A stretch of DNA of 32,017 bases from Candidatus Fermentibacteraceae bacterium (lineage in GTDB: Bacteria; Fermentibacterota; Fermentibacteria; Fermentibacterales; JCC-6), in NCBI GenBank assembly GCA_016744855.1, contig JADGDO010000002.1:306160-338176 (forward strand), written 5' to 3'. The position numbers and the translations under genes were made by a program. A model generated the notes under the pieces. It was not told the DNA's origin. It saw only the letters and a program-made list of their open reading frames with translations, and did no database searches. Within the stretch, counting starts at the first letter, position 1. Every line of letters begins with the position of its first letter. Positions 26,627 to 29,960 of the stretch are shown here, in pieces.

Positions 26627-27619
26627 TTACTTCAGAAGAACTGCTCTCCGGCTTACCTGTTCATTTCCGATGGTTCCGGAAATAAGATAAGTTCCTGAGG
26701 ACAATCCGTCAGCTGAAACTGTAAGATTATGGATTCCGGAAGCAAGGGAACCCGAACAGAATGTTCCGACCATTCTTCCGCTTACATCATAAAGACCCAG
26801 TTCACAAGGAGCAGGACCTGCGAGTTCAACTGTAGCGCTGAAAGAACCGGAAGCGGGGTTCACGACAGAAATAGAGCCAACAGAAAGGCCCATACCGCTC
26901 TCACCCGAAATGCCGGTGGTGGTTGTGAAGAAATCCATGTACGCAGTCATGAGTTCCTCGCGTGTTGTTCCCGTTTCTTCAAAAACACTGAAGAATATTG
27001 AAGAAGTAATTGTTTTGTAACCGGACGAAGGATCAAGATAGCAACCGATTCTGCCTTTGCCGTCCTGGCTTGTGAAGATCATTTCTCCAGTATTTACAGA
27101 AAAATCATCTACATACCCGTCTGCTTCACTTTTCCACGGGTAATCAAAATTAATACCGGAGCAGAAACCTGCACCAGTAATGTTCTGAACATTTCCTGTG
27201 GTAGCTACTGCACCGTCACCCACATAATTCAGTCCGGTGTATGGCCAGATATTTGAATCTTTGTTGTTGTAACCGATGTCATTTCCCTCGAAGTACACCG
27301 CGCCGCCTGCATCGAGGTAGGTGATAAGCTTTGTTCGCTCCGCCGGAGCGATTGTGTTGTTATCTCCTCAACAGGTGTACATACCCATCATCATGAAAAC
27401 GGCATCATAGGAACTCAGATCTGCTGGAAGGGTGGTTCCAGAGTCAACAGTATCGCCAAGGGAAAGCAGCGTCTGCTCTACCCAGTAACCGGTATCGATA
27501 GAATCTCCAAGCGCAGCATCATAAATCAGATCCACCTGGTCGTAGTTAAAGATCAGCACGTTGTTACCGGCCAAGCAAATAGCGGATGCTAGAAGCATCA
27601 TCGGGATCAGTATTCTCAT
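26627..27619 (-). CDS. Secreted T9SS-type protein, candidate selenoprotein with in-frame TGA
   Basis: The frame has 330 codons before the stop, with one internal TGA at codon 84 (27370-27368). The start is ATG 27619 with a strong GGAGGAGGAGAG just upstream, giving the signal peptide MRILIPMMLLASAICLAG. Before the TGA: NNVLIFNYDQVDLIYD, then YDAVFMMMGMYTC. After it, in the same frame: GDNNTIAPAERTKLITYLDA, then GGAVYFEGND, a pattern resembling the glutamine-amidotransferase/flavodoxin-like domain of secreted proteins, in which a sheet strand and turn precede a helix and YLDAGG. The C-terminus (about 250-330: VVNPASGSFSATVEL, LGLYDVSGRMVG, LSSGTYLISG, ending RAVLLK) is a T9SS sorting domain. 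Reading TGA as selenocysteine gives a Cys83-Sec84 pair. A SECIS-like hairpin follows. Other explanations are a nonsense mutation (TGG to TGA) or an error. Confidence 0.75.
27335..27351 (-). promoter_or_regulatory. SECIS-like hairpin following in-frame TGA (first gene)
   Basis: On the minus strand TCGCTCC and GGAGCGA form a perfect 7-bp stem closed by the loop GGC. The loop begins 23 nt after the TGA, and its first two bases are G. From memory, bacterial SECIS elements sit about 16-37 nt after the UGA and have a G at the start of the apical loop. The hairpin is in coding sequence. Confidence 0.55.
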
Positions 27620-27752: not shown

Positions 27753-29960
27753 CTATCTGGAAACTACAAATCGTGAAGACATGTTAACATCCGCACTTTG
27801 AACCGTGGTAAAATAAACACCGGGTGCGAAGGAGGAAGTATCAACAACCAGCTGATTTGACCCGGCCGTCATGTTTTCAGAAGAAACAGTCTGAACTGCT
27901 CTTCCAGACAAATCGTAGATTGTTACGGTGGTAAAGCCGGAGAGTGGAAGATTAAATTCAACCGACGCGCTTCCATTGCACACAGGGTTTGGTGATACAC
28001 GGATTCCGTTCCCGGGTAAAGCAAACTCTGCTTCCTCTTCAATGGCAGTACCACAGTAAGAACGCCACGCTGCAGCACCTGAAGTACCGGCAAAGAAGTA
28101 CTGCTCCTGAGTTTCAAGAACACATTTTATATTTGCAACTGCAGGGTCTTCACCGTAGTGTACAGGTGAACCCGTCCAGTCTTCCCAGATCCACACACCA
28201 CTGGTCGTTGCAGCCACCAGTCCGCCAAAGTCATCCGAGTGGTGAAGTTCGTTTACTGTAGTAAAACTACTGGTCACCTTAGCCCAGTTCTCTCCGCCAT
28301 CAGTACTAGCGTAAAGACCGGAAGATGATGCAATAGCCATTCGGTCAGAATCTGTCGGGTTAACAGCCATATCATAGGGTGTGCCGGTATAGCCCACGGG
28401 GGTAATTTCCGACCAGTCGGTTCCACCGTTTGTGGTTTTGTAGAGTACATAGCTTGAATTTGCATAACCGATAGCAAACAAATTGTCGGAATTGGAAGGG
28501 TCAACTGCCAGTGCTCTCACATAACCGTACTGTGTTCCGGCGTAAAGCTCATGCCTTGTCCAGTTCTGTCCACCGTCCGATGAACTCGAAACCACGCCTG
28601 AATAATTGGGAGAGGTGTATTTGTAACCGCAACTCCAGAAAGTATTGTTTCCTGCATAAACCAATCCATAACCGTCGCCATAGTAACTGTCTGCCTGCGT
28701 CCAGACGGAACCTCCGTCTGTGCTCCTGTAGAGCTCTGAGTTTCCTCAACCAGAACCCTCTAGAGCCAGAATTGTACCTGATCCATCCGCACTGATGTCA
28801 CAAAAATCACCACAGGCAAGGGGAGTCGTCACCTCCTCCCAGGAGACAGTACCGGAAGCAGGAGACTTATACATTCCCATGTCTTCCAGATTCATGAATA
28901 TCCAACCCTGTGATTCCTCCATCGCGAGAACCTTGCCTGCGACAAGCCCGTTGTTAGACGAGGTCCAGGTAGTTCCACCATTTGTAGAGCGGAAGAAACC
29001 GTCAGAACTGGATGTAAAGATGTCTGAGCTGTTATCCCAGCTGGGAACTATCCACTGGATATCGCTGCCGGTAAGTCCAGAAGTCATGTTTGACCAGGTT
29101 AATCCACCGTTTGCTGAACTGTAACCTCTTGATGACCCACCAGCATAAACCAAGTCGTTGTCTGCCATGCTGTAAGTCATATGGTAGCTGTAATTCTGGG
29201 TCTGTACCTCTGACCAGCTGGCTCCAGCATCTATGGAACGATAGACCTTGTAGAGACTCGCCGACAGCATAATGTCAGGGTTTGCAGGATGGATTGCAGC
29301 ACCGTAGAAATAGTATCCCGATGAAGCTGCTGCAGGGGTTACATTGGTAAATGAAGCCCCGCCATCGATGGAACGGAACAGTGCTGGTTCATAAGTACTG
29401 GCATCGGTTGTATAACCGTAACCGCCCACCAGTAGTATTGAAGGGTCAGACTGTGAAATGTCGATACATCTTCCGTAGGTCTGAGTGCCCGTGATAGGAA
29501 GATAAGTAACATCAAAAGTCGCACCATTGTCTACTGAATGCAAAACAGCAAATTTCCATGAGCTATCGTACTTGTAACCCGCTGCATACAGTTCTCCAGG
29601 TGCGGTGGGGTGGGAAACAGCATCCTGGAAGTAGGTGTTGCTTTGATAATGGCCAGTCCAGGAAAGACCGGCATCAGTTGAAGACCATGTTCGGCTGCTT
29701 CCGACTGCAACAAGGTTGTTATCTGCGGTAACAATCAAATCGTAGGGAGTGCCACTGGTAAAGGAAGACTGCACCTCCCAGCTCAAACCCGCGTCGGTAG
29801 AGTGCACAACCTGAGTCGGGCTTGCTCCGGAAAGAGCCCAGAGCTCTGAAGCATTTGTTCGTGATTGAACCGGGGCATTAACGTCCCCACCTTCGGGGCC
29901 GGTACTTTCCCATGGTCCCCATCCCAATAATGAAACCAAAATACAGAGCGAAAACAGCAT
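27753..29960 (-). CDS. Secreted BNR/Asp-box propeller protein with T9SS tail, candidate selenoprotein
   Basis: The frame has 735 codons before the stop, interrupted by one TGA at codon 405 (28748-28746). ATG has GGGAGG 5 nt upstream; the first 15 residues (MLFSLCILVSLLGWG) are signal-like. About eleven Asp-box motifs (S-x-D-x-G-x-x-W, such as STDAGLSW, SIDGGASF, STNGGTTW, SSDGGQNW, STDGGENW) lie on both sides of the TGA, as in BNR/sortilin-type beta-propellers. The end (NGIRVSPNPV, TVTIYDLSGRAV, VDTSSFAPGVYF, FVVSR) is a T9SS sorting domain. The frame is continuous: ILALEGSG, TGA, GNSELYRSTDGGSVW. An apparent second gene starting at TTG 28664 is therefore only the 3' half: it has no signal peptide or ribosome binding site. 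With Sec at 405 and Cys at about 383 and 387 (LACGDFCDI), a redox or metal site is possible. Confidence 0.78.
28702..28720 (-). promoter_or_regulatory. SECIS-like hairpin following in-frame TGA (second gene)
   Basis: On the minus strand CAGACGGA and TCCGTCTG form a perfect 8-bp stem with the loop GGT, starting 33 nt after the TGA at 28748-28746. GGT matches the GGU-type apical loop of known bacterial SECIS elements. The hairpin overlaps the codons for the Asp-box STDGGSVW. Confidence 0.55.

Follow-up and report, generated by a model that had tools for sequence, protein, structure and literature searches.

The window, by which we mean the whole analyzed stretch of 32,017 nucleotides, contains a gene for a predicted secreted beta-propeller protein that is interrupted by an in-frame TGA, and a neighboring gene with an in-frame TGA of its own (Table 1). 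An earlier note, made from sequence alone, described a propeller frame of 735 codons with one TGA at codon 405, Asp-boxes in the same frame on either side of it and a sorting domain in the second half only. All three points held: there is exactly one in-frame TGA, it is flanked by Asp-boxes, and the sorting domain occupies residues 656–733.

Table 1. Features of the propeller gene and of the neighboring gene (positions in the window)
Feature	Position	Strand	Remarks
Propeller gene, predicted secreted GH74-like tandem beta-propeller	27753..29960	(-)	735 aa with UGA read as Sec; stop TAG
Probable signal peptide MLFSLCILVSLLGWGP	29913..29960	(-)	Hydrophobic N-terminus; model helix 2-12, low confidence there; inferred from sequence
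Codon of Cys383, invariant partner of Sec405	28812..28814	(-)	Comparison of relatives
In-frame TGA, codon 405, inferred Sec	28746..28748	(-)	Conserved alignment column
Smaller 5-bp hairpin GCUCU-ACA-GGAGC, between the TGA and the main hairpin	28722..28734	(-)	94.9% of cells paired, one compensatory change
Asp-box STDGGSVW, residues 413-420	28701..28724	(-)	Codons double as hairpin
Main bSECIS hairpin, 8 bp, loop GGT (28712-28710)	28702..28720	(-)	Fold, covariation, codon conservation
Type IX secretion C-terminal sorting domain, residues 656-733	27762..27995	(-)	3' of the TGA; PF18962 3.2e-9, TIGR04183 3.6e-10
Neighboring selenoprotein gene (inferred), 330 aa, vicinal Cys83-Sec84, weak sorting tail	26627..27619	(-)	
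Neighbor in-frame TGA, codon 84	27368..27370	(-)	TGA in 17/18 relatives aligned over the site
Neighbor bSECIS hairpin, 7 bp, loop GGC	27335..27351	(-)	4/7 pairs with compensatory double changes

In Pfam the propeller protein matches a Sortilin-Vps10-like BNR stretch and the type IX sorting tail. The structure model (pLDDT 86.3, pTM 0.68) predicts two seven-bladed propellers in tandem, and the best full-length matches in the fold search are GH74 xyloglucanases (PDB 6p2m, 5fkr, 4lgn and 6p2k; Z ~28, rmsd 4.5–5.3, 578–594 aligned residues). These enzymes have the same tandem seven-bladed propellers with Asp-boxes, but the identity is low (15–18%), the likeness is one of predicted fold only, and the catalytic aspartates were not compared. 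GH74 proteins are not known to contain selenocysteine (Sec). PorZ (PDB 5m11), which ranks lower in the fold search, is also a surface beta-propeller of an organism with type IX secretion; it differs in being part of the secretion machinery itself and is no selenoprotein. The requirements for a type IX cargo are met, as the C-terminal sorting domain is present and the genome encodes the translocon SprA (416.7 bits joined). Because the sorting tail lies 3' of the TGA, we infer that type IX secretion is not open to the short product and that only a read-through form would reach the surface.

The main hairpin, CAGACGGA-GGT-TCCGTCTG, has a folding energy of -11 kcal/mol by itself, and the 49 nt from the TGA on fold with -22 kcal/mol (z = -3.9). 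The claim of an 8-bp hairpin with a GGT loop that starts 25 nt past the TGA and has its loop at +33 held in every detail; the smaller hairpin, likewise conserved, had been overlooked. The published limits for a bacterial Sec insertion element, or bSECIS, are a loop of 3–9 nt with G in the first two loop positions, a stem of 4–16 bp, a distance of 16–37 nt from the UGA and MFE <= -7.5 (PMC13188914). All of them are fulfilled here (loop GGU, 8 bp, 33 nt, -11 kcal/mol). By chance, an equally strong hairpin at the same distance follows 0.9% of all TGA triplets (40,785) in the DNA retrieved for the analysis, and therefore a lone hairpin is weak evidence. It is its conservation that makes the evidence strong. 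In the alignment of 29 sequences 95.6% of the cells are paired, versus 35–48% when the partner is slid, and compensatory changes occur at three pairs; in the main stem, for instance, A-U replaces G-C and C-G replaces A-U. The hairpin is embedded within the codons of the Asp-box STDGGSVW. At 10 hairpin codons the top codon is common to 98% of the sequences, versus 52% at 130 other conserved codons (Mann-Whitney p = 1.4e-7). A conserved and covarying hairpin is thus shown. The conservation of the smaller hairpin might partly reflect the coding constraint of ELYRS. This smaller hairpin is also kept in the class B paralogues described below; a SECIS of two hairpins would be unusual.

The propeller gene was found in 24 of 42 genomes in searches of the family and the phylum, in most cases with a single TGA. 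Among named genomes, the organism itself is closest to Candidatus Sabulitectum and to metagenome-assembled genomes of Fermentibacteraceae. Altogether 34 propeller genes bear a TGA: 23 of class A and four of class B in Fermentibacterota, and seven elsewhere. The carriers belong to Fermentibacterota, WOR-3 and, in one case, Zixibacteria. The TGA stands at one alignment column, displaced by one codon in four genes, in the context G-x-G-U-G-x-x-E-L-Y-R-S-T-D-G-G-S-V-W. Class A orthologues share the column at 35–68% identity and the WOR-3 relatives at 28–34%, so the conservation of the TGA itself is shown. The homologues outside the phylum are L102, L104 (two tandem genes), L105 and L106 in WOR-3, L108 in Zixibacteria, and L103. 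In the class B paralogues (L079, L036, L037 and L087) Sec is one codon off with respect to the Asp-box; their stem is GACGGC-GGN-GCCGTC. In the alignment protein identity runs on past the TGA, which fulfills the criterion of two-sided conservation for bacterial selenoproteins.

Several single loci deserve mention. L104 has two Sec propellers in tandem (L104:745-804 and L104:3175-3234); the stem of the second copy has diverged (CCAACGGC/GCCG(A)TTGG) and still pairs with one bulge. The contig of L103 (LSSI01000083) is binned as Thermoplasmatales archaeon SM1-50; its Sec propeller groups with a WOR-3 row, and the contig is probably misbinned and WOR-3-like. A BNR protein of Coatesbacteria (L130:4409-4468) has an in-frame TGA (FSEGGGUGPTCEGEVFRSTDGG) with a weak hairpin, in a genome with tRNA-Sec, and could be an independent or distant case. 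A broken-looking propeller copy (L035 and L086, on G016:C144), in which the TGA is off the Sec column, is likely a decayed gene. In viral contigs the matches were merely generic BNR ones, and none had the TGA. A fifth genome match to the hairpin motif (L192, G000:C96:41946) has no supporting reading frame. A scan of the fetched loci revealed no further convincing family besides the propeller and its neighbor, though the full selenoproteome was not counted.

Two simple explanations of the TGA can be considered at this point. The first is that the TGA arose by an error in sequencing, by faulty binning, or by a nonsense mutation that left a pseudogene. In its favor, the DNA comes from a metagenome-assembled genome, and L021, one of the relatives, carries an additional TAA. 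Against it, the same TGA is present in independent assemblies of eight genera of Fermentibacterota and of other phyla, the frame is kept on either side of the TGA, and the codons are frozen at the hairpin. Given the conservation across independent assemblies, we rejected this explanation as practically excluded. The second is that the TGA is the ordinary stop of a 404-residue protein, while the hairpin is kept for another RNA reason or results from Asp-box codon bias. The Asp-box codons GAC GGN GGN are indeed prone to pairing. However, other conserved codons do not show such uniformity, and compensatory changes are found in the hairpins of both the propeller and the neighbor. The protein conservation downstream of the TGA rules this explanation out almost completely.

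The machinery for Sec insertion is shown to be present. The draft genome (3.24 Mb, 94.85% complete) encodes SelA, SelB (626 aa, 316 bits, above the curated cut-off), tRNA-Sec (68 bits with the Rfam model; also ARAGORN tRNA-SeC(tca)) and two SelD, and thus fulfills the machinery criterion. The selA gene is directly upstream of selB on the same strand. Each of the two SelD genes (L210 and L211; G000:C85:30587-31507 and C10:33589-34512) has one in-frame TGA; one adjoins selAB, and one has a GGU-loop hairpin of the same style as that of the propeller. Sec-type SelD is a known selenoprotein and serves as an internal positive control. Among the 36 family genomes tRNA-Sec was found in 30 and SelB also in 30, the latter in all 20 genomes with >= 90% completeness and <= 5% contamination. 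Two WOR-3 carriers and the Zixibacteria carrier have tRNA-Sec above the cut-off, and none was detected in the draft genomes of the TGA carriers G010, L102 and L103, which counts against the Sec reading. Rfam at the gathering threshold gave no match within the window.

A few relatives lack the TGA. L029 has Ala at the Sec column and a 7-bp relic stem with the loop GGGAT, and consequently a hairpin alone is no proof of decoding. L033 and L083 have Tyr and no stem; the distant relative L084 is gapped and poorly aligned at the column, with a Cys nearby. The genome that carries L029 (G017) has SelB and no tRNA-Sec match in a draft that is 85% complete. In a tree built by a quick method these rows nest inside TGA-bearing clades; Sec therefore appears to be the ancestral state of the sampled family, with about three losses. 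Cys homologues exist for almost all selenoprotein families (PMC12013277). Having Ala or Tyr in close relatives, and Cys only in the poorly aligned L084, is unusual for a selenoprotein and counts against the Sec reading.

The presence of Sec co-varies with that of a cysteine, Cys383. It is found in every class A TGA carrier checked, those of WOR-3 and Zixibacteria included, and is replaced by Phe, Ala, Ala and Thr in L029, L033, L083 and L084, respectively. This co-variation is shown for class A; class B lacks Cys383 and has instead a common Cys shortly after the Asp-box, ahead of the next blade. In the model both residues belong to one blade of the second propeller: Sec405 is in the loop that joins the second strand (397–401) to the third (409–413), and Cys383 is in the loop preceding the first strand (386–391). 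In a four-stranded propeller meander such loops share one face, opposite the Asp-box turn. Since Cys383 is lost together with Sec405 and the two loops would lie on one face, we propose a Cys383–Sec405 selenenylsulfide. That it is reversible and redox-active or redox-sensing outside the cell is inferred, the distance between the residues has not been measured, and we consider this proposal as likely to fail as to hold. Alternatively, the inserted Sec405 could serve as a structural crosslink or bind a metal, without being a redox center. The joint loss of Cys383 and residue 405, as expected for a bond, the extracellular location of the protein and the tolerance of Ala or Tyr in relatives without Sec agree with this alternative. 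On the other hand, Sec is costly where a disulfide would do, and close relatives do not show the simple change to Cys. We lean against this alternative.

The neighboring gene is an independent second case on an unrelated secreted scaffold, new-looking and with covariation stronger than that of the propeller; of the two it provides the cleaner evidence. In its hairpin 97.5% of the cells are paired, versus at most 56% when slid. The stems of relatives include TCGCTCC-GGC-GGAGCGA, TTGCTCA-GGC-TGAGCAA, TTCCTCA-GGA-TGAGGAA and TTGGTCA-GGC-TGACCAA. The Cys-Sec pair has the context TCUGDN; in one relative (L060) it is replaced by Gly-Arg, and there is no stem. No Pfam domain was found in the protein beyond the weak sorting tail, and the structure model (pLDDT 37.6) gave no usable prediction. 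The claim of two adjacent genes with the same interruption thus held in part: both genes have the TGA and the hairpin, but the pairing is not fixed. In relatives other genes lie between the two, or the two are on different contigs.

One more alternative is ordinary read-through, in which a suppressor or near-cognate tRNA reads the UGA as Trp, Gly or Arg, the hairpin stimulates read-through and the long form adds the tail. Read-through of a stop can be stimulated by a hairpin a few nucleotides 3' of it, and the tail is present in the long form alone. However, no TGG or Gly codon occurs at the Sec column in the aligned relatives. The spacing of the hairpins is that of a SECIS, their loops are GGN, and the Sec machinery occurs together with them. 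Also, the TGA co-occurs with a Cys partner, the neighbor has a Cys-Sec pair, and the genome has a Sec-type SelD. TGA still serves as a stop here, as the propeller genes L019, L022 and L024 end in TGA. Recoding to Trp or Gly was rejected on the grounds that relatives have no such codon and TGA remains a stop, and we regard ordinary read-through as highly improbable.

We conclude that the propeller gene very probably (about 0.95) encodes a Sec-containing surface protein. This estimate applies to the selenoprotein reading only and not to a redox role; any activity is a matter of inference, and the biochemical function is unassigned. Sec insertion itself is inferred, as neither selenium nor the full-length protein has been observed directly. 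With high confidence we infer that SelB with Sec-tRNA-Sec would bind the GGU-loop hairpin in the mRNA and UGA405 would be decoded as Sec. The full-length product would then be exported via the signal peptide, cross the outer membrane by type IX secretion and be retained by its C-terminal tail; this export is also inferred. The 404-residue product made without Sec has no tail, and thus Sec supply would gate surface delivery. The Sec interpretation of the earlier note is supported, as none of the outcomes that it named as refuting came true. Homologues keep the TGA at the column instead of lacking Cys or TGA there, a misread TGG is excluded because genomes from different genera and phyla, assembled independently, have the same TGA, and SelB is encoded together with SelA, SelD and tRNA-Sec. 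Its expectation of a conserved Cys or Sec column held partly: the Sec column is conserved, its replacements are Ala and Tyr, and Cys383 is a co-varying partner.

Known selenoproteins with a bSECIS, such as formate dehydrogenase, SelD and thioredoxin-like proteins, are similar to the propeller in having the UGA with an immediate hairpin within published limits, SelA, SelB, SelD and tRNA-Sec in the genome, and Cys-Sec pairing. The propeller differs in that its close relatives have Ala or Tyr rather than Cys and that its SECIS and an Asp-box repeat overlap. Selenium-binding protein 1 (methanethiol oxidase) is also a propeller tied to selenium and sulfur chemistry; it binds selenium post-translationally, and its selenium is not UGA-encoded. 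A 2026 catalogue of 119 prokaryotic selenoprotein families and subfamilies includes no propeller, BNR protein or type IX cargo (PMC13188914), none of the nine new families of deep-Sep (2025) corresponds to this protein, and none of the NCBIfam selenoprotein models matches the propeller. Nothing on Sabulitectum, on Fermentibacteria with selenocysteine or on type IX selenoproteins was found in open-licence PMC papers; subscription papers and preprints were outside the search.

A bolder reading, for and against which we see similar odds, is that Fermentibacterota and WOR-3 have a whole class of type IX-exported surface selenoproteins. In these, Sec would be paired with Cys on a propeller or on a second, unrelated scaffold, delivery would depend on Sec, and the SECIS would have arisen inside the Asp-box repeat code. 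If true, such an origin would explain how Sec entered a propeller family without a Cys precursor. The present case adds a scaffold, the beta-propeller, and a place, the outer surface reached via type IX secretion, that are absent from the above catalogue, and it comes from uncultured phyla. The Cys383–Sec405 pair is directly testable. As the close relatives use Ala or Tyr, methods that rely on Cys homologues would tend to miss this family, and other such families may hide where a gene is annotated as two fragments. A SECIS embedded in an Asp-box offers a concrete route for Sec to arise in repeat proteins.
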